Origin: Opitutales bacterium
Lineage (GTDB): Bacteria; Verrucomicrobiota; Verrucomicrobiia; Opitutales; Oceanipulchritudinaceae
DNA length: 55,760 nt
Direction: 5' to 3'
Assembly (NCBI GenBank): GCA_020831585.1
Contig: JAFIGE010000010.1
Location: 1 to 55,760 of the forward strand
Part shown: piece by piece, positions 36,367-55,719 of the stretch
Layout: each line of letters opens with the position of its first letter
Numbering within the stretch: the stretch's first letter is position 1
The notes under the pieces: generated by a model
Seen by the model: the letters and a program-made list of their open reading frames with translations, nothing else
Told to the model about the DNA's origin: nothing
Database searches by the model: none
Translations under genes and position numbers: made by a program

Positions 36367-39300
36367 ATGAGAACACTTTTCAAAAGTCTATCGCTGCTTC
36401 TTTTGGGATCCCTCGCCGGATCCACCCTCACCGCCCAGACAACCGCCACCGGCCCCGGCTACCTCGATTCGTGGAACTGGCAGGCACCGACCCCCGCCGA
36501 TGCCGCCAATCTGATTGGGATTGCCGCTAATGGATCCACCGTTCTGGCCGTAGGAGAGGACGGGCAGGTGCAGCGCTCCACCGATGGCGGAGATTCCTGG
36601 ACGATCGTCAGCGATCCCCTCTTTGTCGGCACGACCTTTAGCGGTATTGCCAATAGTGGAGCCACCTTTGTGATCGTTGGCTCAGGAGGTAGCGCCCTCC
36701 GCTCCTCTGACAATGGCCTCACCTGGACAACTGTCGATGCGGATACAACAGAGGATTTGCTCGATCTTGCCTTCGACGGTCTTTCGGCAACCTGGATTGC
36801 GGTGGGCGCGAACGGCACGATCCGCCGATCCGTTGACGGTGGCCTTACTTGGAGTTCGGTGGCAAACCCCTCCACGCGAGACCTTCGGGCAGTGGCTGCT
36901 TTTGGCGGGAATTTTTACGCGGGCGGTGAGGCGGGCACGCTCATCCGTTTTGCTCCGGGGGCGGCGTCTGCATCCATCCTTCAGGGTGGTTCCGGGGGAT
37001 TCACCTATGACATCCGTGACTTTGCCTCCGATGGCGATCATCTCTTCGCAGTCGGAACAAACGGTCACATCCTGCGCTCGGCCAACGGGAGCAACTGGAG
37101 TGTGGTCTATTCAAATTCGGCATATGATTTGCACAGCATCAGCCATCACCCGTTTGGTTTCTTTCTCGCTGCCGGTGAGGATGGGCGCTTCCTTTATTCG
37201 TTAAATGGGACCAATTGGTTGGAGGGTTCCAACCGGACTCCCTTTGCCACCAATGCCTTGCTGCCGGTGCTTGACGGTTTTCTGGCGGCCGGTTCACAGC
37301 ACAGTGTCTTTTCGGTTCAACCGCGGGATGTCGCGGATGCCAATCTCTCCATGGAGGGGCTTTTCTGGACGCAAATTAACTCCTCTGACGGAGGCAGTGC
37401 CTACCAGGGGGCTGTCCACGCAGATGGCTCTTTTGTCGTGGTGGGTGAAAATGGCAATATCCGCCTTTCCACCGATGGCTCCTTGTGGTCAGAGCCTACA
37501 ATGCCGGCACCTCTTGCTGGGGCCAACTGGAGAAGTGTGGTCTATGGCGGCGGGCGCTTTGTTGCCGTTGGTGATTCCGGTGTGGTGGCTCATGCCGACA
37601 GCGCTATGCCCAATACCTGGACGGAAGGCTCTTTGGCCGCCGGGGCAACGCCGGATCTCCACGGTGCGGCCTTTGGCAATGGTCGTTTCGTTGCCATTGG
37701 CAGTGGTGCCAACGTTTACATTTCAGATGACCTGGGAGCCACATGGAGTCCCGTCCTCGTGGGAGCCCTCCCGTCCAGCAATCTGCGCGGAGTCGCCCAC
37801 GGCAACGGTCGTTTTGTCGTCGTTGGCGAAGGTGGTTTGGTCTTAACCTCGGAAAACGGATTGTCGTGGACTCCGCGCTTCACTCCAATCGATGCGGATT
37901 TGACCGATGTTCTTCATGGCCCCCACGGATTCGTTGCCGTTGGGGCTGGAGGGACCATTATCAAGTCCGAGTTTGGCGCGACCTGGCAAAAGCAGATTGC
38001 CGGATCCGGCATTTCAGCGGCCGAGATCGACTTGGAGGCCATAACCTACGCCGATGGTATCTATGTGGCCGTCGGATCTGGCCGGAGCATCCTCACTTCT
38101 TTGGATGCGGTTGCTTGGACCGCGCAGGAGGTGCTTACACGCAATCGGTTTTTTGCCGTCGCCGGCGGCGGTGGCGTCTTTATCGTTGCAGGCGACTTTG
38201 GTTCGATTCTCTCAAGTTCGAGTCCATTGCCTTCAGACCTCGACCGCTGGTCTCTGCGCCGACCCGGGGAGACAGGTCCGAATCTCAACGATGTTCTTTT
38301 TGCCAATGGTGTCTATGTCATCGGTGGGGCCAATGGTGGTCTCTGGACTTCGCTGGATGGTGAAAACTGGACCCCGCGCAACAGCAACACATCGAATGAT
38401 ATTACCGGCATCGCTTACGGCAATGGGCGCTGGGTCGCTGTCGCCGGAAGGGATCGCCTTGTCTCGACTGATGGTCTCAACTGGAATGCTACGCAAACGT
38501 GGTCCCACAACATGTTGAGGGTCAAGTTTGCCAATGGGGTCTTCGTCACCGTTGGGGAAGAGTCCGAAATCTATTCCTCGCCCGATGGGTTGGTTTGGAA
38601 TGGAGGAATTTGGCGTGGCGATGCCGGATCCGGCCCAGCCAACATCAACTCAGCGGTCTTTTTTGAGCCCCTCATGCGTTGGGTGGCCGTGGGCGAGCAG
38701 CTTCCGGGAACTGTTAACCAAGTCTACTATTCCGATGACAATGCCCGATCCTGGACCCTCGGCGACACATCCACCACGAATACGGGTGACAACCTCCGCG
38801 CTGTCTACATTGACCCGGATGTTTTTGGGACACCTGTGCTCTTCGCAATCGGAGGAACGAATTTTTACAGCTTCGATGGCATCTCATGGGATCCGATCGG
38901 GGGATATCCTCACGCTCTGGATGCCACTTTCGGAGATGGTGCTGGTTTTCCCACCGGGGTAATCGTTGGGGAGGGAGGGGCCATCACGCTTTTCCCCTCT
39001 TTCGATAACGCTTATCCGGGGATTTTCGACGATCTCAATGCGGTAACCTATGCCAACGGTCAGTTCATTGCTGTGGGTGACAATGGGCGCATCCTCACTT
39101 CGCCGCAGGGAAAATTTTGGCAGGTGCGGGGTGTGCAGACAATTCCCGCCATCTTGTCGGTCGTTCGCGGAGCCTCCGCATACGTGGCGGTGGGAGAGGA
39201 TGGGCGCATTTACCGTTCATCCACAGGGCTGAACTGGGAGCCAAAGCCGCCACCTGCCGACGTCGGAGCCGTCACGATGCGGCACGTCTTTTGGACCGGT

Positions 39301-42300
39301 AGTCAGTTTGTTGCCGCAGGCGACCTGGGAAATATTTGGACCTCTTCTAATGGCGAAGTGTGGACGCGGCGGACTTGGAACGGCTTGTCCCATCTCAGGG
39401 GCGGCGCGTCCAGCGGATCCCACTCCGTTCTGGTCGGTGAGGGCGGTCGGATACTGCGGGCGGGATCCGGGTTGATTGATTGGCAGCCCCGCAGCTCGGG
39501 CACAAGTGTGCGTCTCCACGGAGCTATCTATGATTCCTTCAACAGTCAGTATGTGGTCGTCGGTGATCAAGGTACAGTTCTAACCTCGCCCGATGGCATG
39601 GATTGGACGACGATCCCCTCGCTGGACAACCTGCCGCTGAGAGACTTGGCTCAAACGAGTGATGGCCTTCTCGTTGCAGTCGGTGAGGAGGGGCGTATTT
39701 TCACCTCCATGGATGGGGTTAACTGGACCCCGTCCCCCTCTTCGGGCACAATCAAAAATTTGCGCACGGTATCTTTCGGAGATGGAATCCTGGTGGCCAT
39801 GGGTGACCGCGGCCTTGTCATCTCCTCAAGCAATCAAGGGGCAACCTGGTTCAGTCGCCCTTCAAACACTGCCTACACACTTTATGGGAGCGCTTTCTTC
39901 GAGGGCGTCTTTGTTGGTGTTGGTGGTTTTGGCACCATTATTCATTCAGGCACCATTTTTGAAAAGCAAAGCCAGAGCATACTGTTTCCGGAAATCGGGG
40001 AGCAGACTTTGGCAGCCTCCCCTCTGCAGCTGAGCGCTTTTGCCTCTAGCGGCTTGCCCGTTGGGTTCAGGGTCATTTCAGGCCCGGCAGTGGTTTCCGG
40101 CAATCAGCTCACGCTTACGGGAGAAGGCACCGTCCTGGTGCGGGCCGAGCAACCGGGCAATCGCTTCTTTCTTTCGGCCCCTGCCATTACCCGCTCCTTT
40201 CAAGTGGTGGACAGTATTCGGCTTCCGCAGACCATTTTGTTCGATGGCATTGAAGACCAGTCCTTTGGGGTGTCTGTAAATTTAAATGATCTCGCGACAG
40301 CCACGAGCGGACTTCCTTTGTCCTTCGAGCTTCTTTCCGGGCCTGCCTTGCTCGTCGAGGGAGTCCTCTCGACTGGCTTTGAGGAAGGCACCGTATTGGT
40401 TCGCGTTTCTCAAAACGGCAATCAGGAATTTGCCCCGGCAGCCCCCTTGGAGATTTCCTTTGGCGTTCGAGCCAAGGAAGACCAGATCGTTGTCATACAG
40501 CCGTTCGCGCCCCCGTCGCTGGGGGATCCTGCCATCACGCTCCGCGCTGTTGCCAGCAGCGGCCTGACCGATTTCCGCTTTGAAGTGATCAGCGGACCGG
40601 CCTTTGTCTCGGGTAATAGCTTGGCGGTTTACGGTGTGGGGGTCGTCACCATTGAAGCCGTGCAGCCTGGCGATAGCGAGTTCAACCGCGGGGTCGGGCG
40701 CACCTCTTTCAGTGTCGGGGGCAGTGAAAACTTTGAGCCCGGACCGAGCTTCCTTGATCTTTGGACATGGCGTTCGCCGGAAATTGTTGATTCCGGATAC
40801 AATGCGCTTGCTTCGGATGGTGCCTGGACAATCGCCGTGGGCGATGATGGACGGATTGCCCGTTCCTCCAATGGAGGGCTGACCTGGAGTTCAGTGGATT
40901 CAGGAACAACTGAAGATCTCTATGACATCGTTTTTGTCGCCGCTTCCAATCGCTTTGTGGCACTGGGTGATAACGGCCTGGTGCTCGTTTCCCTTACGGA
41001 AGGGACTACGTGGACTCAATCGTCCGTGAGCGGAAATCCGTCCCTGCGCGGGCTTGCCGTCAATAGGGAGGGCAATCGCTTTGTCGCCGTAGGCCTCGGT
41101 GGCCGGATTTTCTCTTCGCCGGATGCGCTCAACTGGGTGGATGCCACCCCACCGGGCTTCAGCCGCGATCTCGCCGACGTTGTCTGGGTTCCCGGCTTGG
41201 GCGACGGGCGCTTTGTCGCCGTCGGGGCCACAGGTGCGGTCTTGCGTTCCAGTGATTCTGCCGGAGCCAGTTTTGAAGTCCTCAGGGAAGGTCTCGGGTT
41301 TAATCTTCATGCTGTTCACGCCCCGTCTTCGCCATTTGGTGCCTGGAGAGTTTTTGCCGTCGGCGACGATGGCATTGTTATGGCCTCCAAGGATGGGGTG
41401 ATCTGGTCCAACCGTTTCTCCGGTTCCTCCTATCAACTGCGGGCGATCCACTCGGGGAATGGGTTTTTGCTCGCCGCCGGCGAGAATGGCCGCGTTCTTT
41501 ACTCGCAGAATGGGGACGTCTGGACGGAGTCCTTCACGCGCTTTAATGTGGGGATCCGGGGGCTGACCTTCATCAACGGTCTTTTCCTTGCCGGGGGCGA
41601 CAACTATTCCATTTTCTCCACCCCGCAGGGGCTCACCTGGACCATTCGGGAGACGACCACGCGGACAACTTACCACGACTCAGCCGCGAATGCCGATGGA
41701 ACGGTCCGGATCGTTGTCGGCGACAACGGGCGCATTGTTCGTTCGGTGGATGGGGTCAACTGGGACCCCGCTGTCAGCGTTCCTGTGACAGAGAATCTGC
41801 GCGGAGCGACCTTTGGCTTTGGGCGATTCTATGCGGTAGGCCAGAATGGTACAATTCTTCACTCGAGCGACGGCGACACTTGGACGACCGTCCCCGCTGT
41901 GACAACACGCCATTTGAATTCCATCGCGTTTGCCAACGGGCGTTTGGTTGCGGTCGGGGATGGGTTCACGACCCTCCTCTCGATTGATGGGGATGCCTGG
42001 ACTTCAATCACATCCGGTTCCAGCAACAATCTTCATGCGGTTGCCTTTGGCAACGGCACTTGGACTGCTGTCGGTTCGGACGGTCTGATTATTACCTCCC
42101 TGAATGGGGAGACCTGGCGCACCCAGTTCAGCGGAACGACGCGGGGTCTCAACTCGGTGACCTTTGGCGACGGTCGGTTCGTCGCGGTGGGACAGGGGGG
42201 GAGTATCTTCACGTCCACTTTTGGGGATGTCTGGACCCTGCGCGCGTCCGGCACAACCTTCGATCTCCACGGCGTAGCTCTTGCCGATGGCGTCTATGTT

Positions 42301-45300
42301 GCGGTGGGCCAGGGCTTCACCTTCCTTACCTCACGCGACGGCGTGGATTGGTCCGCGCAGAAGAGCGGAACACTCAATAGCCTCCGCAATGTAAGCTATG
42401 CCGGAGAGCTTTTTGTGGCCGTCGGTGACTTTGAGACCATCCTTACGGCAACGGCGGTCCTGCCTCCGGGGCTTGACCAATGGACGTTGCGCAATCCGCT
42501 GCCGGAGGGCCCTAATTTGAACGAGATCATCTACGGGAATGGAATCTATGTCGCCGTTGGTGGCCAGGGAACCATCCTCGTTTCAACCGATGGCCTGAAC
42601 TGGTCTGAGAGGGATTCCGGTATTTCCGATCCCATCACGGGGGTTGCGTTTGGGAATGGCCGCTTTGTGGCCGTAGGGGGGCAAAATATTCTCGTATCGG
42701 AAGATACCCTCAACTGGCGTGTCCAAACAACCTGGCTCGTCCCGCTCTACAAGGTCAGTTTCGGCGGAAATATATTTGTCGCTGTTGGTGCGAGTTCGCA
42801 CATCCTGCACTCTGCCGACGGTTTGATCTGGGCCGGTGGTCAACAGAACCAAGACGGGCAGGACATAAATGATGTCCGTTACGAGCCGAGCAAGAATCGA
42901 TTCGTCGCTGTGGGGGCCGCTGCCGAAAAGACAGCTACTTATGTTTGGCTCGATCCCGACCTCATCCACTCTCCCTTCGAACGGCTCGAGTTCGTCTATG
43001 AGCGGGAGCTGGTTACCCAAGTTTACATCTCACCAAACGGCATCGATTGGGAGCGCGTTCATCCACCCCTTAGGATCACACCAACAAGGTTGATTTTGAC
43101 CCCAGTTGGATATGTGCCCGATCCGCGGCCGCGCTGGTATGATGAGACCCTGAACACGGTTGCTTTTGGTCGCGGTTACTTTCTCGCCGCTGGCGACGGG
43201 CTTATGATCAATTCATTCACCGCGGACAACGATGAATGGTCTGTTGTGAGCCTTGGCGGGCGCTCCATCCGTGGCTCTGATTTTGGAGAAGGGCAGGGTC
43301 GTTCACGCTTCGTCCATGTCGGGGTCAACGGCTCGATCAGTTCCCACGATCCGCAGAGCATCAGTTTTCCGGGAATTCAGGAAAATCTCAACAGTGTGGT
43401 ATGGGGAGGCGATCAATTCGTCGCGGTGGGGGATAACTCCCGCATCCTTACCTCTCCCACCGGTCAGTTCTGGCAGGTTCGGTCGACCCAGGTTCTTCCG
43501 GCTTTTCGCTCGGTTACTTCCCGCCCCGGGGAGTATGTTGCCGTCGGCGAACGGGGGCTGATTTACCGTTCGACAGATTCCATAAACTGGGAGGCGATCG
43601 CGAGTCCCTCCCTCCTGAACTTGAACTCGGTGATCACGAGCGCAGCCCGTTATATTGCCGTGGGCAACTCCGGCGTGATCCTGACCTCAGGCAATAGCCA
43701 GGATTGGTCCCTCAGGGTCTCCGGCGTTCTGGACAATCTCAACCAAGTGACCCGCAGTGCCGGTGGTGTGATTGTGGCGGTCGGCAATGCCGGGCAAGTC
43801 ACGCGCTCCTCCGATGAAAGCATCAGTCTTTGGACACCTGTGGCCACAGGTGTGACCGAAAACCTCACGGCGGTGGTCCATAATCCGGTTTTGGATACGT
43901 TCTTTGCCTTCGGTGTGAACGGTCGATTGCTGACTTCCATCGATGACGGGTTGTCGTGGACCGCATCGGTCGTGCCGAATTTCGGAACTTTGCCTATTCA
44001 TGATGTCTATGTCTTCGGAGACGGTCGAATGGTCGCCGTTGGCGAGCAGGGCCGGGTTTTCACCAGCCCCGACGGGTTGGCTTGGACAAGACGTTTTTCG
44101 GGCACGACCAACGCCCTCCACTCCATCGTGTTTGGCGATAATCTCCTCTTTGCCACAGGTGCTGCTGGCACGGCGCTTTCCTCCAGTGATGGAGGTTTAA
44201 GCTGGTTCCGTCGCCACACAAACACGGGCTACACGCTCTATGGATGCGATTTCCGGGACGGTGCTTTCCTTGCCGTCGGCGGATTCTCCACGATTATCAC
44301 CTCGGGGGCTGTGGAATCAAAGTTTGATCAAAGCATCCAGTTTGTCCCGATTTCGCCCAAGGTGATCACCGATTCAGATTTCGCGGTCTTTGCCCAAGCG
44401 ACAAGCGGTTTGCCCATTGAGTTTGAAATTGTTTCCGGTCCGGCGACGGTTATTGGGAACATTGTCAGCCTGACCGGCTCCGTCGGTGATGTCGTCATCC
44501 GTGCCCTCCAGAACGGAAATGCCAACTTCAGGCCAGCCGATCCGGTGGAGCAGATCTTCCGCGTAACATTGGCCAATCAGGTGATTACTTTTAATCCCTT
44601 GCCGGACCGCACATTTGGCGATGAGCCCTTTACGCTCACAGCGACCACGAGCGCCCCTGGTTTAGACGTTGTTTTTGGAGTTGAGTCCGGCCCGGCGGTC
44701 TTGGACGGGAATCTTTTGAGAATTACCGGAACGGGTACTGTCACCGTTGTCGCGAGCCAGCCGGGAACGGATCAGTTCAATGCGGCAACCCCCGTCAGCC
44801 GATCTTTTCAGGTAGGCCCGGCCGCGCAGACGATCGATTTTTCGCTGCCCCCTTCAGCCACTCTGGGAGACCCGCCGATTCTTTTGACCGCCGAGGCTTC
44901 CTCGGACCTGCCAGTCTCTTTTCGTGTTGTTTCCGGACCGGCTTCCATCTCGGGCGGAAATCTTATCCTTGATGGTGTCGGCACCGTTGTTGTTGAAGCA
45001 ACCCAGGCCGGCAACGAACTCTACCTTGCGGCTGCTGCGGTTCGCTCGGAGATTGCCGTTGCGCCTGCTTTGCCGGGCAATTTCTGGCGCCCCGTTACGC
45101 TCCCTGCAGCCGTCGCCCAAACAGATTTCCGCGATGTCATCTGGTCGGGCCAGGACGGTCGCTTTGTTGCCGTTGGCTCCGGACAGGCGGTCATCACCTC
45201 CAGCACCGGCCTTAACTGGAGCCGCCGGTCTTCCAATGGAAGCGCGGAACTCACTTCAGTGAGCCGTGGTTTCGACGGTTTCCTCGCCTCCAGTGCCTCC

Positions 45301-48300
45301 GGAATGCGCCTTCGCTCACCGGACGGCCTCAACTGGGCGGCGCTTTCCGATGCTCTCGTGGCCCCGGTTTCCGATATGGCCTACGGTAACGGTTTGTTTG
45401 TTGCCGTTGGCGCAGAAGGTTTCATTGCCACCGCGCCAATCGGGCGTGCTGCGGAAGATTGGACCCTTCGCACCAGCGCTGCCTCCGGGCTCCTTACCTC
45501 CGTCATATTTAGCAATGGCGAGTTTCTCGCCGCTGGCGACGGTGTCATCCTGCGCTCTGCAGACGGGCGCACGTGGGAAACCGTGTTCAACTCTCCCGGG
45601 GATCTATTCCGCGATATTACCCGCAATGGGGGTAATATCGTAGTCGTGGGCGAAGGCGGCGTGGCTTGGTTTTCAACTGACAACGGCGACAGTTGGTTCC
45701 TCGGCGTTGGGGTTTCAGGCAATCTCACTGCCGTGACTTATGGCGCGGGACGGTTTGTTGCTGTCGGCCAAGGTGGGGTCATCTACACCTCCTCAAACGG
45801 TTCGGAATGGACACCCCGTGTTTCCAATGTCGTACCGGATCTTCGAGCCATTGCCTTTACGGAGGAAACCTTCGTCATTGTTGGGGATAACGGGACCGTT
45901 CTCACGACCGGCGACGCGCAGGATAATGTGCTTCCCAAGTATCCTCAATCAATCACCTTTGGAGCCCCTGCCGACGTATCCTTTGACGCGGGTGCGGTTG
46001 CGCTCTCGGCGAGTGCGGACAGCGGTCTGCCGGTGAGCTTTGGCGTCTCCTCCGGACCGGCGGTGCTGGAAGCCGACGGAACGACCCTGACCCTGACGGG
46101 CTTGGGCGAAGTGGTTGTGCGCGCTTCGCAGAGCGGAGACGCGACCTTCGCCCCCGCCGCCGAAGTGGAGCGCCGCTTCACGGTCACAGCAGGCGCGAAC
46201 GTGATCACCTTCGCGGCGCTGGCCGACGCGACCTTCGGCGACGGCCCGGTGACGCTCAGTGCGAGCGCCTCGAGCGGTCTGGCGGTGAGCTTTGAGCTGG
46301 TCTCGGGACCGGCGGAGCTGGACGGCGACGAGCTGACGCTTACGGGAGCGGGCACCGTAACGGTGCGCGCGTTGCAGGCGGGCGATGCCATCTATGCGGA
46401 AGCCGCGCCGGTGGAGCAAAGCTTCACGGTGGCCCCGGCCCCGCAGACGATTACCTTTGATGCGCCGGCGACGGTGACCCTCGGGGTGGCACCCCTGGAG
46501 CTGGAGGCAACGGCCTCGAGCGGCCTGCCGGTGAGCCTCGCGCTGATCAGCGGCCCGGCGCAACTGGAGGGCAACGTGCTCACGATCACGGGTTCGGGCA
46601 GCGTGGTCGTGGAAGCGACGCAGGCGGGCGATGCCAACTGGCTTGTCGCTCCTGCGGTGACGCGCACGATCACGGTGACGTCCGTGGCGGTGGGCGAGTT
46701 CTGGCGTCCGCTGGAAGTGCCCTCGGTTGTCGCCGAAACGGATTTCCGCGATGTCATCTGGTCGGGCACGGACGAGCGTTTTGTCGCAGTGGGTTCCGGG
46801 CAAGCTGTCATCACATCGGGCACCGGTTTGTCGTGGGTGCTGCGCTCAACGGGAGCAGCCGAGTTGACTTCGGTAACACAGGGTTTTGGTGGCTATTTGG
46901 CCTCCAGTTCTACGGGTATTCGTTTGCGCTCCACTTCGGGCTTGGCCTGGGGACCGCTTTCAAATGCTTTGGTGGCACCTGTTTCCTCCATGGCTTACGG
47001 AAATGGGCTCTATGTGGCCGTGGGTGCGGGCGGATATGTCGCTACCTCTCCGAACGGACTGGTGGCTGCCGATTGGACGGTGCGTTCGATTGGCGCCACC
47101 GGATTGCTGACTTCCGTTATTTTTGCCGAGGGCGAATTTTTGGCCGCTGGCGATGGTGTCCTTTTGCGTTCTTCCAATGGACGTGAGTGGGAGACTGTCT
47201 TCAACTCTCCAGGCGATTTGTTCAGAGGCATCGCCCGGTATGGTGAAAACGTTGTGGCTGTTGGAGAAGACGGTGTGGCTTGGTCTTCGCCTGACAATGG
47301 AGAGAACTGGTTTCTTGGCCTTGGTGCGACAGGAGATTTGGCGGCTGTAACCTACGGCGCAGGGCTCTTCGTTGCCGTTGGTCAAGGTGGAGCAATTTTC
47401 ACTTCGCCGAATGGTCTGGAATGGACGGCCCGTATTTCCGGCGTCACCGCTGATCTGCGCGCGATAGCTTTCACGGAAAACACTTTTGTCGTCGTCGGGG
47501 CCAATGGGACCGTGCTCACGACAGGAGATACTCAGGAGAATGTGTTGACCAAGACTGCCCAAACGATCTCTTTCGCGGAATTGGCTAATATTTCCTTCGC
47601 CGAGGGCGAGAAAGTCTTGAGCGCCACTTCGACCAGCGGTCTTCCGGTGCGCTTTGGCGTTTCCTCGGGCCCGGCGGTGCTGGAGGCTGACGGGGTTACG
47701 CTGACCTTGACGGGACTGGGCGAAGTGGTCGTGCGGGCCTCACAGTCCGGCGATGCGACCTTCGCTCCGGCCGCCGAAGTGGAGCGCCGCTTCACCGTTA
47801 CGGGTATCGAGCAGACCATCAACTTTGCCACGATCCCCTCAAAGGTCTTTGGCGATCCGCCCTTCCAGCCGGTCGCGACGGTCCTTCCAAGCGGGCTTCC
47901 AGCCCAGTTTGAAATCGTCAGCGGGCCCGCTGTAATCCGTGATGGCCTCATTGAGATTACGGGCGTGGGAACTGTCGTGGTGCGCGCCAAGCAACCAGGT
48001 GACGCCACGCACATGGCTGCACCGGCTGTCGAACAGTCGTTCGTCGTGGCCCGCGCTCCTCAGGTCATTACCTTCGGGGTCTTGTCTCCCATGGAAGAGG
48101 TGGATCCGCCTCGCACGCTGGTTGCCACGTCTTCCAGCGGACTTCCCGTCTCCTTCGAGATCGTGAGCGGCCCGGCGACCATTTCCGATGGCAATCGCCT
48201 TACGCCCACCGGTGTGGGGCAGGTGACTGTCCGGGCCACGCAACCGGGCAACCAACTGTATCTGCCCGCCGCCCCGCGCGAGCGCACTTTCGAGGTTCGT

Positions 48301-50331
48301 CCGTCCTCCACCGGAAGCGTCTGGACGCCGGTGCCGGATCGGCCTGTCGAAACCGATTTGGTGGGTGTGTCCTTTGCCGGTTTCCGCTTCTTCGCCACGG
48401 GTGCGCGTTCCGCCATTCTCCGTGCAAACAGTGATGCTTCCGATTGGACGGCCGTGTCGACGGGTTCGGGCGTTCTTAACAAGGTCGCTTTTGGCAACAA
48501 CGTCTACGTGGCTGTGGGTGAAGCGGGTATTGTCCTGCAATCCCCGTCCGGCACGAGCTGGAATTTCTTCAGCAGCGGTGTGGATGTGCCGATGAACGAT
48601 ATCGTTTATGGCAACGGTCGCTTCGTCGCCGTTGGCAGTGGCGGTGCTATCTTCACTTCGACTTCCGGCACCGACTGGACCCTTGTCCAGTCCGGGGTGA
48701 GTGATGACTTGCGCTCGGTTATCTACGGCGGAGGTCGGTTTGTCGCCGTGGGTGGACGGGGCATCACCGTATCCATGGACGGTCTCAACTGGACGGCCCT
48801 CGAAACAGCGGAAGCCGCAGGCTTCAACGCAATCACCTACGGAGGCGGCCGCTATCTTATTGTGGGCGATGATTTCACGGTGTGGACTTCCTCCAATACG
48901 AATTCCTGGACCATCGGAAGCCAAACCGGCCCGGACTTGTTTGGGGTGGCTTATGGAGGCGGGCGGTTCATCGCCGTCGGATCCGAAGGGGCCATCTTTA
49001 CATCGGCTTCCGGGCTCGGTGGTTGGCTTCAGCGCTCTTCCGGAACAACCGCTAATCTACGCGATGTGGCTTACATCGAAGACAAGTTCGTCATCGTCGG
49101 CGATGGCGGCACGATTCTTCACGATGGCGTCATCAACATTCGCTCGCCCCAGACGATCACCTTCGGGGAAATTCCCGACCGTGGCCTCATGGAAGGGCTT
49201 CTCACGCTCAGTCCAAGCGCAAGCAGCGGACTGCCCGTGACGCTCACGGTGATTAGCGGTCCTGCTACTTTCATGGTGGACGGGCGGACCCTCATCTTCG
49301 CCAGCGGTGGAATGGTTACCGTTCGCGCCTCTCAGGAGGGTAACGGCGATTTCCTCCCGGCGCCCGAGGTGACCCGCACCTTCTCTGTTCGCGGCCCGTC
49401 TGATCCCACAGACTTTGCTCTTCTCTCTAACCGGGACTTGCTCCTCGGGGAGTTGAGCGGTAACGAACTGGAGGCCGCCGCAGTCATTATTGAGAACACA
49501 GGGCGCGCAGCCTATATCGATTCCCGTATGCGCTCCACGGGCTTCTTGAGTGTCCGGCGGGTTCTCATGGTGAACGCCTTCATGCGAGGAACTTGGGGCG
49601 GGCCCCAATCCATGAAAAGAAACAAGGATACCATCGACACCTTCGGTTTAGCCTTTCTGGTTGAGTCTTTGATCCCCGATTTCCGCAGGGTCTATTTTGA
49701 GAATCGCGCGGTTCCCGGAATTATGGCACCGGCGAGCGAGGTCGATCCGTTCCTCCGGGCTGTCTGGCGGGCCAAATATGGTGCCGAAGCGCCTGAGCCG
49801 ACCTCCGCTCAATTGGCTCCCTTGCGCGAAGGCTTCCGCAGTTTCCCGGTGGAGATGTTCCTCTCCCAAGTTATCCAGGAGGTGTCGGGCTTTGATGGGC
49901 GCTCTATGATCTTCGGCATTCCCAATCCGCCGCCAAACCGTTTGCGTGATGAAGCCGATGCAGCCGCCCTCATCATCGGGCTGATGCGTTTGCCCGCAAG
50001 TAATGCCGAGGTCGCCCGGTTGGCTCGTCAGCCTCTTCTCGCGCAGATTGAACAGGTCCTTGCGGACGAGCGCTACTTTGATCGTCTGGCCCTTTGGGCC
50101 GGGTCGGCGGAGTTTAGCGACGACATCCGCTTCTCCCCCTGGCTCGGCGTGCATTGGGTCACCGGTGACGGGTGGACCTATTCGCCGGAGTTGGGATGGA
50201 TCTACATCTTCGCCGATGACATGATGGGGTTGTGGATCTATTCCGTCGATCTCGGCTGGATGTGGACGTCGCCCGGGTATTACTCGGCGGGCCTCTATTA
50301 TCGGGTCAACGGCGGTTGGTCCTCGCGGTAA
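36367..50331 (+). CDS. Giant secreted BNR/beta-propeller-like repeat protein, 4654 residues
   Basis: One unbroken 14 kb frame. A signal peptide (MRTLFKSLSLLLLGSLAGSTLTAQ) starts it. Then come five blocks: four are a run of blades of the form F-V-A-V-G-x-x-G-x-I-x-x-S-x-D-G-x-x-W followed by three immunoglobulin-like repeats (Q-T-I-T-F...SGLPVSFEVVSGPA...V-x-V-x-A-x-Q-x-G), and the last has one such repeat. Approximate residue limits are 33-1455, 1457-2900, 2902-3440, 3442-3980 and 3982-4345. A unique segment and a Trp-rich C-terminus follow. The blades resemble Ycf48/sortilin-type BNR repeats, and the repeats resemble MBG-type adhesin domains. It sits directly after the secretin. A surface or extracellular adhesive role is inferred; nothing shows an enzyme. 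Confidence 0.85.
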   Translation: MRTLFKSLSLLLLGSLAGSTLTAQTTATGPGYLDSWNWQAPTPADAANLIGIAANGSTVLAVGEDGQVQRSTDGGDSWTIVSDPLFVGTTFSGIANSGATFVIVGSGGSALRSSDNGLTWTTVDADTTEDLLDLAFDGLSATWIAVGANGTIRRSVDGGLTWSSVANPSTRDLRAVAAFGGNFYAGGEAGTLIRFAPGAASASILQGGSGGFTYDIRDFASDGDHLFAVGTNGHILRSANGSNWSVVYSNSAYDLHSISHHPFGFFLAAGEDGRFLYSLNGTNWLEGSNRTPFATNALLPVLDGFLAAGSQHSVFSVQPRDVADANLSMEGLFWTQINSSDGGSAYQGAVHADGSFVVVGENGNIRLSTDGSLWSEPTMPAPLAGANWRSVVYGGGRFVAVGDSGVVAHADSAMPNTWTEGSLAAGATPDLHGAAFGNGRFVAIGSGANVYISDDLGATWSPVLVGALPSSNLRGVAHGNGRFVVVGEGGLVLTSENGLSWTPRFTPIDADLTDVLHGPHGFVAVGAGGTIIKSEFGATWQKQIAGSGISAAEIDLEAITYADGIYVAVGSGRSILTSLDAVAWTAQEVLTRNRFFAVAGGGGVFIVAGDFGSILSSSSPLPSDLDRWSLRRPGETGPNLNDVLFANGVYVIGGANGGLWTSLDGENWTPRNSNTSNDITGIAYGNGRWVAVAGRDRLVSTDGLNWNATQTWSHNMLRVKFANGVFVTVGEESEIYSSPDGLVWNGGIWRGDAGSGPANINSAVFFEPLMRWVAVGEQLPGTVNQVYYSDDNARSWTLGDTSTTNTGDNLRAVYIDPDVFGTPVLFAIGGTNFYSFDGISWDPIGGYPHALDATFGDGAGFPTGVIVGEGGAITLFPSFDNAYPGIFDDLNAVTYANGQFIAVGDNGRILTSPQGKFWQVRGVQTIPAILSVVRGASAYVAVGEDGRIYRSSTGLNWEPKPPPADVGAVTMRHVFWTGSQFVAAGDLGNIWTSSNGEVWTRRTWNGLSHLRGGASSGSHSVLVGEGGRILRAGSGLIDWQPRSSGTSVRLHGAIYDSFNSQYVVVGDQGTVLTSPDGMDWTTIPSLDNLPLRDLAQTSDGLLVAVGEEGRIFTSMDGVNWTPSPSSGTIKNLRTVSFGDGILVAMGDRGLVISSSNQGATWFSRPSNTAYTLYGSAFFEGVFVGVGGFGTIIHSGTIFEKQSQSILFPEIGEQTLAASPLQLSAFASSGLPVGFRVISGPAVVSGNQLTLTGEGTVLVRAEQPGNRFFLSAPAITRSFQVVDSIRLPQTILFDGIEDQSFGVSVNLNDLATATSGLPLSFELLSGPALLVEGVLSTGFEEGTVLVRVSQNGNQEFAPAAPLEISFGVRAKEDQIVVIQPFAPPSLGDPAITLRAVASSGLTDFRFEVISGPAFVSGNSLAVYGVGVVTIEAVQPGDSEFNRGVGRTSFSVGGSENFEPGPSFLDLWTWRSPEIVDSGYNALASDGAWTIAVGDDGRIARSSNGGLTWSSVDSGTTEDLYDIVFVAASNRFVALGDNGLVLVSLTEGTTWTQSSVSGNPSLRGLAVNREGNRFVAVGLGGRIFSSPDALNWVDATPPGFSRDLADVVWVPGLGDGRFVAVGATGAVLRSSDSAGASFEVLREGLGFNLHAVHAPSSPFGAWRVFAVGDDGIVMASKDGVIWSNRFSGSSYQLRAIHSGNGFLLAAGENGRVLYSQNGDVWTESFTRFNVGIRGLTFINGLFLAGGDNYSIFSTPQGLTWTIRETTTRTTYHDSAANADGTVRIVVGDNGRIVRSVDGVNWDPAVSVPVTENLRGATFGFGRFYAVGQNGTILHSSDGDTWTTVPAVTTRHLNSIAFANGRLVAVGDGFTTLLSIDGDAWTSITSGSSNNLHAVAFGNGTWTAVGSDGLIITSLNGETWRTQFSGTTRGLNSVTFGDGRFVAVGQGGSIFTSTFGDVWTLRASGTTFDLHGVALADGVYVAVGQGFTFLTSRDGVDWSAQKSGTLNSLRNVSYAGELFVAVGDFETILTATAVLPPGLDQWTLRNPLPEGPNLNEIIYGNGIYVAVGGQGTILVSTDGLNWSERDSGISDPITGVAFGNGRFVAVGGQNILVSEDTLNWRVQTTWLVPLYKVSFGGNIFVAVGASSHILHSADGLIWAGGQQNQDGQDINDVRYEPSKNRFVAVGAAAEKTATYVWLDPDLIHSPFERLEFVYERELVTQVYISPNGIDWERVHPPLRITPTRLILTPVGYVPDPRPRWYDETLNTVAFGRGYFLAAGDGLMINSFTADNDEWSVVSLGGRSIRGSDFGEGQGRSRFVHVGVNGSISSHDPQSISFPGIQENLNSVVWGGDQFVAVGDNSRILTSPTGQFWQVRSTQVLPAFRSVTSRPGEYVAVGERGLIYRSTDSINWEAIASPSLLNLNSVITSAARYIAVGNSGVILTSGNSQDWSLRVSGVLDNLNQVTRSAGGVIVAVGNAGQVTRSSDESISLWTPVATGVTENLTAVVHNPVLDTFFAFGVNGRLLTSIDDGLSWTASVVPNFGTLPIHDVYVFGDGRMVAVGEQGRVFTSPDGLAWTRRFSGTTNALHSIVFGDNLLFATGAAGTALSSSDGGLSWFRRHTNTGYTLYGCDFRDGAFLAVGGFSTIITSGAVESKFDQSIQFVPISPKVITDSDFAVFAQATSGLPIEFEIVSGPATVIGNIVSLTGSVGDVVIRALQNGNANFRPADPVEQIFRVTLANQVITFNPLPDRTFGDEPFTLTATTSAPGLDVVFGVESGPAVLDGNLLRITGTGTVTVVASQPGTDQFNAATPVSRSFQVGPAAQTIDFSLPPSATLGDPPILLTAEASSDLPVSFRVVSGPASISGGNLILDGVGTVVVEATQAGNELYLAAAAVRSEIAVAPALPGNFWRPVTLPAAVAQTDFRDVIWSGQDGRFVAVGSGQAVITSSTGLNWSRRSSNGSAELTSVSRGFDGFLASSASGMRLRSPDGLNWAALSDALVAPVSDMAYGNGLFVAVGAEGFIATAPIGRAAEDWTLRTSAASGLLTSVIFSNGEFLAAGDGVILRSADGRTWETVFNSPGDLFRDITRNGGNIVVVGEGGVAWFSTDNGDSWFLGVGVSGNLTAVTYGAGRFVAVGQGGVIYTSSNGSEWTPRVSNVVPDLRAIAFTEETFVIVGDNGTVLTTGDAQDNVLPKYPQSITFGAPADVSFDAGAVALSASADSGLPVSFGVSSGPAVLEADGTTLTLTGLGEVVVRASQSGDATFAPAAEVERRFTVTAGANVITFAALADATFGDGPVTLSASASSGLAVSFELVSGPAELDGDELTLTGAGTVTVRALQAGDAIYAEAAPVEQSFTVAPAPQTITFDAPATVTLGVAPLELEATASSGLPVSLALISGPAQLEGNVLTITGSGSVVVEATQAGDANWLVAPAVTRTITVTSVAVGEFWRPLEVPSVVAETDFRDVIWSGTDERFVAVGSGQAVITSGTGLSWVLRSTGAAELTSVTQGFGGYLASSSTGIRLRSTSGLAWGPLSNALVAPVSSMAYGNGLYVAVGAGGYVATSPNGLVAADWTVRSIGATGLLTSVIFAEGEFLAAGDGVLLRSSNGREWETVFNSPGDLFRGIARYGENVVAVGEDGVAWSSPDNGENWFLGLGATGDLAAVTYGAGLFVAVGQGGAIFTSPNGLEWTARISGVTADLRAIAFTENTFVVVGANGTVLTTGDTQENVLTKTAQTISFAELANISFAEGEKVLSATSTSGLPVRFGVSSGPAVLEADGVTLTLTGLGEVVVRASQSGDATFAPAAEVERRFTVTGIEQTINFATIPSKVFGDPPFQPVATVLPSGLPAQFEIVSGPAVIRDGLIEITGVGTVVVRAKQPGDATHMAAPAVEQSFVVARAPQVITFGVLSPMEEVDPPRTLVATSSSGLPVSFEIVSGPATISDGNRLTPTGVGQVTVRATQPGNQLYLPAAPRERTFEVRPSSTGSVWTPVPDRPVETDLVGVSFAGFRFFATGARSAILRANSDASDWTAVSTGSGVLNKVAFGNNVYVAVGEAGIVLQSPSGTSWNFFSSGVDVPMNDIVYGNGRFVAVGSGGAIFTSTSGTDWTLVQSGVSDDLRSVIYGGGRFVAVGGRGITVSMDGLNWTALETAEAAGFNAITYGGGRYLIVGDDFTVWTSSNTNSWTIGSQTGPDLFGVAYGGGRFIAVGSEGAIFTSASGLGGWLQRSSGTTANLRDVAYIEDKFVIVGDGGTILHDGVINIRSPQTITFGEIPDRGLMEGLLTLSPSASSGLPVTLTVISGPATFMVDGRTLIFASGGMVTVRASQEGNGDFLPAPEVTRTFSVRGPSDPTDFALLSNRDLLLGELSGNELEAAAVIIENTGRAAYIDSRMRSTGFLSVRRVLMVNAFMRGTWGGPQSMKRNKDTIDTFGLAFLVESLIPDFRRVYFENRAVPGIMAPASEVDPFLRAVWRAKYGAEAPEPTSAQLAPLREGFRSFPVEMFLSQVIQEVSGFDGRSMIFGIPNPPPNRLRDEADAAALIIGLMRLPASNAEVARLARQPLLAQIEQVLADERYFDRLALWAGSAEFSDDIRFSPWLGVHWVTGDGWTYSPELGWIYIFADDMMGLWIYSVDLGWMWTSPGYYSAGLYYRVNGGWSSR
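36460..40730 (+). repeat. Block A of the giant protein: blades plus three Ig-like repeats
   Basis: Begins YLDSWNWQAPTPADAAN and continues with roughly 40-45-residue units carrying F-V-A-V-G and D-G-x-x-W. It closes with three repeats of about 80 residues (from about 39970). It pairs in layout and length with block B, whose first unit is FLDLWTWRSPEIVDSGYN, so the two arose by one large duplication followed by divergence. Confidence 0.7.
40735..45060 (+). repeat. Block B of the giant protein: second long blade run plus three Ig-like repeats
   Basis: Mirrors block A in its opening tryptophan pattern, blade count and the closing trio of repeats (from about 44320). One blade region near 42840-43140 carries a longer insertion with YVWLDPDLIHS and charged residues that has no counterpart in block A. 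Confidence 0.7.
45070..46690 (+). repeat. Block C of the giant protein, first copy of a 1.6 kb tandem duplication
   Basis: Starts NFWRPVTLPAAV and runs to the third repeat at about 46680. Aligned with block D it is offset by 1617 bases at 45124/46741, where a stretch of 27 bases is identical, and by 1614 bases at 46162/47776, where another stretch of about 20 bases is identical. Proteins agree closely through the blades and the first repeat. Confidence 0.85.
46690..48300 (+). repeat. Block D of the giant protein, second copy of the tandem duplication
   Basis: Starts EFWRPLEVPSVV and repeats block C blade for blade (FRDVIWSG, RFVAVGSGQAVITS, NSPGDLFRGIARY). DNA identity is strongest at the two ends named for block C and lower in the middle, so silent changes have accumulated. 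The second and third Ig-like repeats differ more from those of block C. Confidence 0.85.
48310..49400 (+). repeat. Block E of the giant protein: short blade run plus one Ig-like repeat
   Basis: A shorter run of blades (VWTPVPDRPVETDLVG to GGTILHDG) ends with a single repeat (QTITFGEIPDRGLMEGLLTL...). It is the last repeat block before the non-repetitive C-terminal segment. Confidence 0.7.
49400..50331 (+). other. C-terminal region of the giant protein with a Trp/Gly-rich end module
   Basis: About 310 residues without blades. A helical part (NTGRAAYIDSRMRSTGFLSV to LPASNAEVARLARQPLL) includes AELVDPFLRAVWRAKYG-like segments resembling DUF4214-type helices. The last 55 residues repeat an aromatic pattern: W-x-x-G-D-G-W-T-Y-S-P-E-L-G-W-I-Y, then LWIYSVDLGWMWTSPGYY, then a final LYYRVNGGW. 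Endings of this type occur on many large Verrucomicrobia exported proteins and may be an anchoring or sorting module. That last point is from memory and unproven. Confidence 0.55.
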
Positions 50332-52097: not shown

Positions 52098-52280
52098 ATG
52101 TCTGGTCGTAACAGTTCCCTGGCTGGCAAGCGCCGCCCAAAGAATAAGAAGCCGGGTGCCAAGCCCAATGCCACACGTCAGCGTCAGCTCGCTTTGCGCA
52201 AGAAGAAGTATCGCAACAGTGCGCTCTTTGCCCGCCGCGAGGCCGAGAAGGCCGCCGCCAAGGCCGCCGCCTCGGAGTAA
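52098..52280 (+). CDS. Very basic 60-residue protein, unrecognised
   Basis: Encodes 60 residues with an ideal Shine-Dalgarno (GAGGAGA, 52084-52090) before ATG 52098. It is mostly Lys, Arg, Ala and Asn: SGRNSSLAGKRRPKNKKPG, then ATRQRQLALRKKKYRN, then a helical EAEKAAAKAAAS end. The composition resembles small ribosomal or nucleoid proteins such as bS21 or H1-like tails, but no family motif is clear. The lone Tyr and the two-part layout (disordered basic half, helical half) are notable. It is expressed divergently from the symporter gene and convergent with the VWA operon. I expect high expression from the Shine-Dalgarno. Confidence 0.75.
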   Translation: MSGRNSSLAGKRRPKNKKPGAKPNATRQRQLALRKKKYRNSALFARREAEKAAAKAAASE

Positions 52281-52320: not shown

Positions 52321-53322
52321 TCATCGAATGTAGAAGATCACGGCCCCGTCGTGGGCGTTCGCCACTTCGCGCATGAGGTCTGCGTAACGCAGGGCAGTGA
52401 TGCCGGGGAAGGCTGGTGTGGGGAAAGCAAGACCGTTTATGGAGACCGTCCGTTCGCCATTGGCTCCACGTGGATTGATGCGTTCGAGGCGGTTGAGGAC
52501 CGTCTGCACGTTTCCGCCGAATTCGTCGCCCACCACGAAGATGGCAATGCGCTTATCGGGATCGCGGTAGCGCTGGATGGCTGTCTGGATGCCGGGCACG
52601 GGGTTGCTTTGGCTGAACCGCTGGTAGCGGTTGACCGCTTCCATGTAGATGCGCCTTTGCGCCGGGGAGTCGGGGAGCCATTCGCCGGCTGAGCTTTCGA
52701 TGATGTGGCGGCCGTCGGCATCCAGAAATTGCAAGCCCTGCACTGCGGGGTAGGCGCGCAGAGCGGCGTCCATCTGGCGGATCGCCTCGGGCCAGAGTCC
52801 GCGACGCCCGGTGAGGTCGAAGAAATTGGGCAGCGCGCGCATGCTCCCGGAGGTATCGATAACGAAGATCAGGTAATTGCGGTCCAGCGGAATCCCCACG
52901 GCGGATGGGGTGTCGGCGCGACCGGGTGGGGTGCGGCGGGCTTCCTCGCGATCGGCGAGTTCGCGGCGACGATCAGCGCGGATGGTTTCCAGTTCGGAAA
53001 TTTCCTCTGCGAGGGTCTCCTCTTCGGCGGAGGCGCTCGAGGCGGCTCTCTCCAGGGACTGGGCGAGGGCTTCGAGTTCCGCGAGGCGGGCGGTGGCGGT
53101 TGATCGCTGACGGACGAGCTCGGCGGTTTCCTTTTCGGTGGCCGTTAGTTCGGCGTTGAGCGCACGGAAACGGGCCTCCACTGCTTCCTGCATGCCTTCG
53201 ATGATCCGGCTTTCCGCGCCGAGAGAGATCACGAAGAGCAGAATGACCGCCCCGAAACCGCAGCAAATGCAGTCGAGGAAGGAGAGGCTGAAAGTCTCGG
53301 TCTCGCGGCGTTGACGTTTCAT
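52321..53322 (-). CDS. Membrane-anchored von Willebrand A protein with intact MIDAS and ExbD-like N-terminus
   Basis: Encodes 333 residues. A basic start (MKRQRRE) precedes the single helix TFSLSFLDCICCGFGAVILLFVIS, with Asp17 at its beginning. That layout recalls ExbD/MotB stator subunits with their single helix and conserved Asp. Residues about 40-125 form a coiled coil, with a Pro-rich joint near 131. The VWA domain begins at NYLIFVIDTSGSM, where D-x-S-x-S (156-160) gives a proper metal site, and includes IAIFVVGDEFGGNV. It is the last gene of a three-gene operon, joined to the preceding one by ATGA. The periplasmic partner is unknown. Confidence 0.78.
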   Translation of the reverse strand: MKRQRRETETFSLSFLDCICCGFGAVILLFVISLGAESRIIEGMQEAVEARFRALNAELTATEKETAELVRQRSTATARLAELEALAQSLERAASSASAEEETLAEEISELETIRADRRRELADREEARRTPPGRADTPSAVGIPLDRNYLIFVIDTSGSMRALPNFFDLTGRRGLWPEAIRQMDAALRAYPAVQGLQFLDADGRHIIESSAGEWLPDSPAQRRIYMEAVNRYQRFSQSNPVPGIQTAIQRYRDPDKRIAIFVVGDEFGGNVQTVLNRLERINPRGANGERTVSINGLAFPTPAFPGITALRYADLMREVANAHDGAVIFYIR

Positions 53323-54395
53323 CGGGTGGGCGCGGGGGGGCGGGGGCCAAGCGGCCAGTCCGGTGCGGGGGCGACGAGGCTGCCCCGCGAGCGGATGGCG
53401 AGATTCCAGAAGTCGAGGGCGGCATGGGGGTCGCCGTCGTGCGGGAAGAGGATCATATTCACGGGCACGCCTGGGGGCAATTGGCGCACGGCGGATTGGA
53501 GCAGTCGGCGGCGGTCGGCTTCGGTGATCTCCATGCCGGGGGCGACTGCCGGACCTTGCGTGGGGAGGCCGTCGATAACGAGGATTATATTGTCCGGCGC
53601 GGGCCGTAATTGGGCGGCGGCGGCAAAGGCTGTTTCGAAGTTGGCCCCGCCACGCGGCATCCAGTCATCGAGATTGCGCAGAGCCTGGTTGATGGAGCTG
53701 TCGCTGAAGCGCGCCCAGCCGCCGCTGTCCTCCGGGGCGAGCGCTCGGGGGGATTGGTTGAAGACAAGGAGCTGGAAGTGCGTGGCCTCGCTCAGATGGT
53801 CGGTCAGCCAGCGAATGGAGGCGCGGGCGCGTCGCCACTTGGGTGCGTTGCGTTGTTCGTCTTCGCTTCGTTGGGAGAGGATCATGGCTTCCGCAAGCGT
53901 ATTGGCCATCATGCCGCCGGAGCCCTCCAGAATAAGCAAGACGCGTTGCCCGGTGAGCTGAAATTCTGTGAAATACTCGCGGGCGGTCACGGTGCGTCCG
54001 GGGCGGGGCGGCGGATCGGGTATCGCGGCGATCGCGGCTTCGGTCTCGCGGATGGCATCGGCGAGAGCGGACCTTTGGGCGCGGAGGGCTTCCAGGCGCT
54101 CTTCCAGGTCGCCGGCCGCTCCCTGGCCGCGCGCGATATCGGCCTCCAGTTCGGCGATCCCGGATTCGATCTCTGCCAATTGCTCGGTTTGCCGCAGAAG
54201 ACTTGCTGTCGCCGATGCCACCTCCTCGCTGATCGAGCGCAGGGAGAGATCGAGCGTTGCGGAGGTATCCGAAACAGTGGCCGCCCGTTGTCCGGCCGTG
54301 AGCACGAAAAGCAGGATCACCGCTCCAAAACCGCAGCACACGCAGTCCAGGAAGGACAAAGTGAATGTTTGGATGGGGCGGCGTCGGCGGCGCAT
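53319..54395 (-). CDS. Paralogous VWA-like membrane protein with degenerate MIDAS
   Basis: Encodes 358 residues and begins like its neighbour: a basic start (MRRRRRPIQ), then TFTLSFLDCVCCGFGAVILLFVL with Asp17, then a coiled coil (residues about 45-125), then a Pro-rich joint. The VWA-like domain starts at RVLLILEGSGGMM, where the metal-site D-x-S-x-S has become E-G-S-G-G (157-161), so metal binding is doubtful. LLVFNQSPRAL and IILVIDGLPTQGPA continue the fold. The two VWA genes probably come from one duplication, and the partner kept the active site. It follows the Hsp70-like gene by 3 bases. Confidence 0.75.
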   Translation of the reverse strand: MRRRRRPIQTFTLSFLDCVCCGFGAVILLFVLTAGQRAATVSDTSATLDLSLRSISEEVASATASLLRQTEQLAEIESGIAELEADIARGQGAAGDLEERLEALRAQRSALADAIRETEAAIAAIPDPPPRPGRTVTAREYFTEFQLTGQRVLLILEGSGGMMANTLAEAMILSQRSEDEQRNAPKWRRARASIRWLTDHLSEATHFQLLVFNQSPRALAPEDSGGWARFSDSSINQALRNLDDWMPRGGANFETAFAAAAQLRPAPDNIILVIDGLPTQGPAVAPGMEITEADRRRLLQSAVRQLPPGVPVNMILFPHDGDPHAALDFWNLAIRSRGSLVAPAPDWPLGPRPPAPTR

Positions 54396-54398
54396 GGC

Positions 54399-55619
54399 TC
54401 AAGTTTCGAGAACCCGGATAGCTTTGCCCCGACCGAGAGGGGTGTCGACTATATCACCCGGAAGCGGTGTAGGTTCTTTGTTCGCATCGGGAAGAGAGGC
54501 AAGCGGATGCGCCTGGTCGCCGATGAGGACATGCGTGGCCGCTTCGGAGTGGGGGTGTCCGGCAGGTTTGGCAGGTTTGCCCGGCAGGGGTGTTTGCGAA
54601 GGGTGGGGGAGGCGGTTGATCTCCGGCACATTCAGCAAGTCGTGTGTCGGGGGCCATGCTTCGGCCATGCGGGCGAGGGTTTTTGCGGTCGCTCCTGTTT
54701 CAACTTCGTACACCGTCTCCCATCCTTCGGCAATCAATGCACTCTTGAGTCCCGGAAGGTGGCGCGCGCGGTCGGTGAGAATCAACGCACCCGTCCAGTC
54801 GCTCAGTTGACTAGTGATCCGGCGGGCGACAGCCGTGGCCATTTCGCGAAATAGGTCGGATGCCGTGGCCGGGCTGATCGTCAGCCGTCGTTCCCGGCGT
54901 CCGCGAATAATCAGTTCGGCATCGAGGCCTTTGCTGAGGGCCTCCAGGCCGAGGGCCACGCTTTCCCGAAAGGCGCGTTCGGTATCCTCCGCGTGGTGAA
55001 TATCGAAGGCATGATCGCTCAGAAATCGCGACGCCCAAGCCCGAAAAGCAAAATCTTCGATCACGCGAGAACCGAGTTCCGGAAGATAATGGTGGGCGGT
55101 GATGCTCCAAAACGCCTCGGCGTCCGTCGTCAACCGCGCAAGTGACCATCCTCCCGGCTCGAGCTCGACAACGGTCACTGGCTTGGATGCATCGCTTCGT
55201 TCGGTCGCACCAAGAACGGCACACAACGGTCCGGGAACGAGTGCGCGTAAAGCGATGCCGAGGCTCTTCGCCATGCCCAGAACGAGTCCCAGCTTTTCCT
55301 CATTCTCCAGGATGTCCACAGGAAGCACCAATGCAAAGTCATCCGCCTTTGGCATCTGTTGGAGGAGCTCTCGCAAGTGATGGTAGGCGATCATTGACCG
55401 CGCCAACGAGGTCTTCTCGCCCCACCCGCTAACCGGTTCAACCGACAGGGCCTCCCAGAAATCATCCAGGGTCCCGCCACCGACCCGCAGGGCCGCATGG
55501 CCAAACACCCATGCATTCCCCCGCCGCGCGGCCCGCCCCGGTAGACTCACCCCCGACTCTCCCTCATCTCCCCCAGCTAAAAAAAGCCCCCCCGCCGCGA
55601 TCTCCAATGCAAATGCCAT
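54399..55619 (-). CDS. Hsp70/actin-like protein with degenerate nucleotide-binding motifs
   Basis: Encodes 406 residues. The layout follows the Hsp70 nucleotide-binding domain: a first beta-alpha unit (FALEIAAGGLFLAG), VTVVELEPGGWSLARL (residues 148-163) in place of the phosphate-2 D-L-G-G-G-T, and then LPELGSRVIEDFAFRAWAS and ERAFRESVALGLEALSKGL, which parallel LGGEDFDNRLV and the R-x-x-x-x-x-x-E-x-x-K-x-x-L-S stretch of Hsp70. Missing acidic and Gly residues suggest weakened or lost ATPase activity. The C-terminus is Pro-rich, ending in a small GDIVDTPLGRGKAIRV beta unit. The start at 55619 was chosen. It is first in the operon with two VWA proteins. Confidence 0.6.
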   Translation of the reverse strand: MAFALEIAAGGLFLAGGDEGESGVSLPGRAARRGNAWVFGHAALRVGGGTLDDFWEALSVEPVSGWGEKTSLARSMIAYHHLRELLQQMPKADDFALVLPVDILENEEKLGLVLGMAKSLGIALRALVPGPLCAVLGATERSDASKPVTVVELEPGGWSLARLTTDAEAFWSITAHHYLPELGSRVIEDFAFRAWASRFLSDHAFDIHHAEDTERAFRESVALGLEALSKGLDAELIIRGRRERRLTISPATASDLFREMATAVARRITSQLSDWTGALILTDRARHLPGLKSALIAEGWETVYEVETGATAKTLARMAEAWPPTHDLLNVPEINRLPHPSQTPLPGKPAKPAGHPHSEAATHVLIGDQAHPLASLPDANKEPTPLPGDIVDTPLGRGKAIRVLET

Positions 55620-55719
55620 ACTCCGATTCCACAAAATCACTCAAAAGCTACAACCAAGAAAAAATTAGTTTCAGAAATTTATTTATCGACAGATTCGCTG
55701 AATTTGTGAGATTGGCGAA

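Follow-up and report, generated by a model that had tools for sequence, protein, structure and literature searches.

The stator systems TolQR, ExbBD, and MotAB each combine a channel protein of the PF01618 family with an axle protein that carries an Asp at the head of its transmembrane (TM) helix, and the axle proteins ExbD, TolR, and MotB are homodimers. The gliding motor of Myxococcus xanthus, AglRQS, consists of one ExbB/TolQ-like protein (AglR) and two different ExbD/TolR-like proteins (AglQ and AglS) (PMC3169522, PMC9389320). Section 8 and Fig. 4c and d of a 2025 paper in Molecular Biology and Evolution (PMC12204202) present the TPH-vWA family (reference cluster from Idiomarina), in which a TolQ-like channel is accompanied by a heterologous pair of von Willebrand factor A (VWA) proteins with a TolR-like helix; the pair is proposed there to be an axle within a pentamer, and AlphaFold 3 models put the Asp pair inside a ring of Thr residues. 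Here, we analyzed a 55,760-nucleotide stretch of DNA from an Opitutales bacterium of the Verrucomicrobiota (contig JAFIGE010000010.1; hereafter, the window), which is the entire contig C110 of a 5.28-Mb genome assembled in 262 contigs. Its right end holds three minus-strand open reading frames (ORFs) that are closely spaced and overlap or nearly do so. They encode a protein resembling the nucleotide-binding domain of Hsp70 (P0003) and two VWA proteins (P0002, of type VWA1, and P0001, of type VWA2). As judged from sequences and predicted folds, these genes probably code for two axle proteins and a cytoplasmic accessory protein of a rotary-type motor driven by protons.

When compared with the description in that section of PMC12204202, the window proteins have each of the features stated for the TPH-vWA family. 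The window genome differs from it in that its exbB gene lies away from the locus, and one clade, to which the window belongs, has a VWA1 protein without a metal site and also lacks a lipoprotein/PEGA-FGE module. An initial annotation of the window had placed an Hsp70-like protein and two VWA proteins at 52321 to 55619, where we also located the three ORFs (54399 to 55619 or 55640, 53319 to 54395, and 52321 to 53322), and had called them a candidate undescribed system. Because the channel and the heterologous VWA pair were published in 2025 as a prediction, the system is not wholly undescribed; what appears to be added to the published core is the Hsp70-like subunit, the splitting of the loci, and the pattern linking metal site and module. 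The running text of PMC12204202, figures aside, makes no mention of Hsp70, a chaperone, a kinase, or PEGA, and vWA does not appear in a 2026 review of Ton and Tol motors. We found no prior report of an Hsp70/FHA-like subunit, of a module of TPR/kinase, PEGA-FGE, and lipoprotein genes, or of the VWA1 metal-site/module pattern. A literature search for an Hsp70/FHA/VWA membrane system also found none, although it did not extend to subscription papers and is therefore not proof.

Like AglRQS, the system has one channel protein and two unequal axle proteins, but AglQ and AglS have an ExbD/TolR Pfam domain, whereas the window proteins have a coiled coil and a VWA domain and no ExbD/TolR match. With TolQR, ExbBD, and MotAB, it shares the PF01618 channel, equivalents of TolQ T145 and T178, and an axle helix headed by an Asp; it differs in its putative periplasmic part, where a VWA head on a long coiled coil takes the place of an ExbD/TolR or OmpA-like domain. 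Zorya (ZorAB) and the other defense systems listed in PADLOC were rejected, as P0001 to P0003 gave coiled-coil noise only and no Zor match.

Two VWA proteins with an invariant Asp

The VWA1-type gene (positions 53319 to 54395, minus strand) encodes 358 amino acids, and the VWA2-type gene (52321 to 53322, minus strand) encodes 333. Both proteins begin with F-x-L-S-F-L-D-C-x-C-C-G-F-G-A-V-I-L-L-F, in which the Asp is residue 17 and stands at the head of a single hydrophobic helix; its codon lies on the minus strand at 54345 to 54347 in P0002 and at 53272 to 53274 in P0001 (codon 17 from the starts at 54395 and 53322, respectively). A coiled coil and a VWA domain follow in both, an architecture that the initial annotation had recognized. 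That annotation also made its reading depend on the conservation of Asp17, and the residue is D in 65 of 65 VWA1-type and 63 of 63 VWA2-type homologues (128/128). A single TM helix with a conserved Asp, joined to a vWA domain, is a stated feature of the TPH-vWA family.

The predicted structure of P0001 has one helix spanning residues 12 to 130, including the helical stalk, followed by the VWA domain. As PDB profile searches with the VWA alignments returned mostly coiled coils, we applied a fold search to VWA2, which identified the VWA domain of P0001 with Z scores of up to 15.8 across ∼160 residues. P0002 scored above the cutoff against Pfam VWA_3 (30.6 bits; cutoff, 27), and an NCBIfam scan gave coiled-coil noise only. 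Neither protein matched the ExbD/TolR profile (PF02472) at E values of up to 1. Because a cationic, Arg/Lys-rich N terminus precedes the helix, the positive-inside rule would place the VWA heads in the periplasm.

In a tree of 126 rows, all VWA1 sequences were on one side and all VWA2 sequences on the other (support, 100), and within both clades the Opitutales group was separate from the remainder, with a similar inner order. The tree was made with a quick method and has Shimodaira-Hasegawa-like approximate likelihood ratio test (SH-aLRT) support only, with some forks open and some long branches. By their sequences, VWA1 and VWA2 are ancient paralogues present in both Verrucomicrobiota and Gammaproteobacteria. 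Their genes are adjacent, which together with the two clades matches the heterologous pair of the TPH-vWA family, and nearly all genomes have one copy of each; the linkage between the motif-bearing proteins, on which the initial annotation had relied, is thus conserved. That the paralogues are ancient, well apart from one another, and unlike in the fate of their metal sites could also mean that each protein forms a homodimeric axle in its own ExbB-like ring, yielding two alternative motors that share one channel and differ in target, for which the homodimeric ExbD, TolR, and MotB are a precedent. We consider such separate homodimers unlikely, as the vwa genes are nearly inseparable, remaining adjacent even where exbB (the window genome) or exbB-hsp (G008) has been relocated, and as their trees match and almost every genome has a single copy of each.

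An ExbB-like channel accompanies the VWA pair

In relatives, the gene next to the Hsp70-like gene on its upstream side codes for a MotA_ExbB-family protein of 265 to 309 amino acids. The ExbB-like proteins of three relatives matched Pfam MotA_ExbB (PF01618) with 48.6 to 54.8 bits (cutoff, 22.9), and alignment of 17 such sequences to TolQ revealed two invariant Thr residues at the positions of T145 and T178. The orthologue in the window genome is located at C173:26269-27087 and is 69% identical to the PF01618-passing protein of one relative. We rejected the reading that the assembly simply broke between C173 and the end of the window, since exbB lies mid-contig (26269 to 27087 of 37500) next to unrelated genes, and the operon is therefore split in this genome as assembled. 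Another genome (G008) is split elsewhere, with exbB-hsp on one contig and the VWA pair on another, so that the pair stays together in both split genomes. The gene order exbB-hsp-vwa1-vwa2 was observed at most verrucomicrobial and many gammaproteobacterial loci, with hsp missing in some families; at L140 and L145, exbB is located downstream of vwa2 and not upstream of hsp.

VWA genes were detected in 22 of the 177 genomes of the order (both genes in 20 and one gene only, at contig ends, in 2). The specific ExbB-like gene (at least 330 bits) is present in every one of the 22, and, as in the TPH-vWA description, no tolR or exbD gene lies alongside. One genome only (G014) had the ExbB-like gene without a VWA match, and there the gene is at a contig edge; all remaining ExbB-like matches in the order scored 122 bits or less. 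Matches were also found in 21 of 337 genomes of a phylum sample and in 28 of 321 genomes from the class to which the gammaproteobacterial genome G479 belongs. The initial annotation had noted that no ExbB/MotA-like partner lies in the operon, which holds for the window locus but not for the system, given the contig end and the lineage-specific split. Its suggestion that the partner is supplied elsewhere was borne out by the survey of neighbors in relatives and by the gene on C173, whereas the suggestion that no partner is needed is contradicted by the co-occurrence in 22 of 22 genomes.

Metal site of VWA1 and the lipoprotein/PEGA-FGE module

The two VWA domains differ in their metal ion-dependent adhesion sites (MIDAS). 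P0001 keeps the DxSxS motif as DTSGS, with an invariant GDE, and every VWA2 row has DxSxS and the loop-3 Asp, with a Ser near the place of the loop-2 Thr. P0002 has lost its MIDAS, as was previously claimed: DxSxS has become EGSGG and the loop-2 Thr is Ala (E157, G161, and A251), with D275 kept. Outside the Opitutales clade, the first MIDAS Asp of VWA1 is kept in 33 of 34 rows; inside it, every one of the 30 readable rows has Glu or Arg at this position, and Ala replaces the loop-2 Thr in 29 of 29. Nearly all Gammaproteobacteria, as well as other Verrucomicrobiota, have an intact VWA1 site, the loss of which is confined to the Opitutales clade of the window. With the paralogues being ancient and the loss so confined, the pairing of active and inactive copies, from which the initial annotation had suggested an asymmetric complex, is not supported as a founding asymmetry.

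Gammaproteobacteria and some other Verrucomicrobiota have an extra module, in which a lipoprotein is accompanied by a TPR protein that in some cases has a Ser/Thr kinase domain and by a protein of the PEGA plus FGE-sulfatase type. Among the genomes tested, the lipoprotein was present in 12 of 12 whose VWA1 site is intact and in 0 of 17 whose site is lost, and the PEGA-FGE profile scores showed the same divide. As this pattern corresponds to a single split in the tree, it amounts to approximately one event and is a correlation only; it would be consistent with the VWA1 metal site contacting the module. That the module is merely elsewhere in the Opitutales-clade genomes was rejected, as the lipoprotein was not found there and FGE/PEGA matches were partial and weaker (217 bits or less).

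The window genome has 14 FGE-sulfatase/PEGA-type matches across many contigs, none of which is the operon-type protein by score. In the Opitutales clade (L033, L056, L057, L154, and others), lipoprotein genes often lie divergent from exbB; they are of a glycine-zipper type (19 loci) and a CNTTYEM type (16 loci), and it is possible that they are outer membrane partners that replace the missing module. A gene family ending in REAAxxExDPELREKLWEEYRKYK precedes the lipoprotein gene at 10 loci (L133, L136, and L130 among them). Two loci of a family in the same order (L062 and L066; f8) have an intact VWA1 metal site and the lipoprotein/PEGA-FGE genes and cluster with the non-Opitutales rows, possibly through horizontal transfer of the entire gene set.

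A degenerate Hsp70-like protein

The Hsp70-like gene (54399 to 55619, minus strand) encodes 406 amino acids, or 413 if translation begins at an alternative GTG 21 bases upstream (end at 55640), and ∼120 bases separate it from the window end. Its identity, as initially annotated, is borne out by the family profile against PDB Hsp70s (E = 1.7e-8), by a model with a predicted local distance difference test score (pLDDT) of 84, and by the match of P0003 to Ssz1 of the ribosome-associated complex (Z = 28.6; root mean square deviation, 3.8 across 334 residues). P0003 thus shares the nucleotide-binding-domain fold of Ssz1 and other Hsp70s but differs from them in that the glycine-rich ATP motifs are replaced in its family, no substrate-binding domain is recognized, and relatives have an FHA-like tail. 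The DxGTT-, DxGGGT-, and GG-type motifs for phosphate and adenosine are not kept in 20 aligned family members. The loss of the phosphate motif noted by the initial annotation thus characterizes the entire family and is not specific to the window. No membrane segment was noted in P0003. A gammaproteobacterial relative has a C-terminal FHA domain (E = 1.8e-12); the tail of P0003 (residues 345 to 406) is shorter than the FHA-like tail of relatives and predicted with low confidence.

The FHA tail, together with the Pkinase domains found in relatives, would suit a device for sensing or adhesion that does not perform work outside but signals inward, through the Hsp70/FHA-like protein and a Ser/Thr kinase, when ions flow or when the VWA domains, which are classic ligand binders, bind a ligand. 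We regard this as quite improbable, since kinase domains occur in few loci only, the Hsp70-like gene is missing in many, and the invariant channel Thr and axle Asp residues argue for a working ion flow. For the mechanosensing device that was initially suggested, we found no evidence. Somewhat unlikely, in our view, is that the motor core is unchanged and the Hsp70-like protein is an assembly factor outside the working machine. Ssz1, an Hsp70 that does not depend on its own ATP hydrolysis, is among the best structural matches, and the Hsp70-like gene can be lost, as would suit such a factor; P0003, however, has no recognizable substrate-binding domain or ATP motifs, and the VWA domains are predicted to be periplasmic and so beyond its reach.

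Other features of the window

On the plus strand, positions 36367 to 50331 form one ORF of 4,654 amino acids with repeats of GNGRFVAVGxxGxIxxSxDGxxW and of ASSGLPVxFxVxSGPA, which is probably a giant surface protein. A small, very basic ORF (MSGRNSSLAGKRRPKNKKPGAKPNATRQRQ...; 52099 to 52280, plus strand) is convergent with the VWA genes. Scanning for promoters and terminators yielded nothing informative.

Proposed motor and its significance

The sequences show how the genes are linked and co-occur, that the Asp and Thr residues are conserved, which folds the proteins have, and that the VWA proteins are paralogues. We infer that the axle is a heterodimer, that protons flow, that the motor rotates and exerts force on the outer membrane, and that the Hsp70-like protein is a regulator. 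In the proposed motor, the MotA/TolQ/ExbB-like channel would form a ring around one VWA1 and one VWA2 TM helix, a heterodimeric axle in a motor of the 5:2 type. Protons would pass via Asp17 of each axle protein and the two ring Thr residues that match TolQ T145 and T178. The stalks, extending ∼95 residues past the membrane (∼14 nm if one straight helix), would bring the VWA heads toward the outer membrane, where these may work mechanically on outer membrane- or wall-bound lipoproteins and PEGA/FGE proteins. The Hsp70-like protein would act in the cytoplasm as a pseudo-ATPase with a role in assembling, plugging, or gating the motor, perhaps under Ser/Thr kinase control in some lineages.

The pairing of unequal VWA proteins, each with an ExbD/MotB-like helix and an invariant Asp, is supported, in line with the initial annotation. 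Several points weigh against the proposed motor. The TM motif is likened to ExbD/TolR from a short segment and from its partner gene rather than through a profile match; with exbB on another contig, its pairing with the VWA proteins is inferred in the window genome; and a literature search found no tested cellular function for any member. The operon lacks the Hsp70-like gene in one family (f11), in G011, and in several Gammaproteobacteria, and because of such absences from the cluster in several families, the protein is an accessory not essential to the core. We offer only tentatively, and as rather doubtful in its entirety, a version in which the VWA axle is obligately heterodimeric, the Hsp70-fold regulator is dead with a phosphothreonine-reading tail, and the VWA1 metal site grips the lipoprotein/PEGA-FGE module, grip and module having been lost once, together.

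To our knowledge, 5:2-type motors of only a few kinds have been described, and those that have been studied well have axles that are homodimers. If the proposed reading is true, a motor with unlike axle heads and an Hsp70-like inner part would be a natural test of asymmetric working, and the clade in which the metal site of one head and its proposed partner are both lost would provide a testable guess at the ligand of that head.
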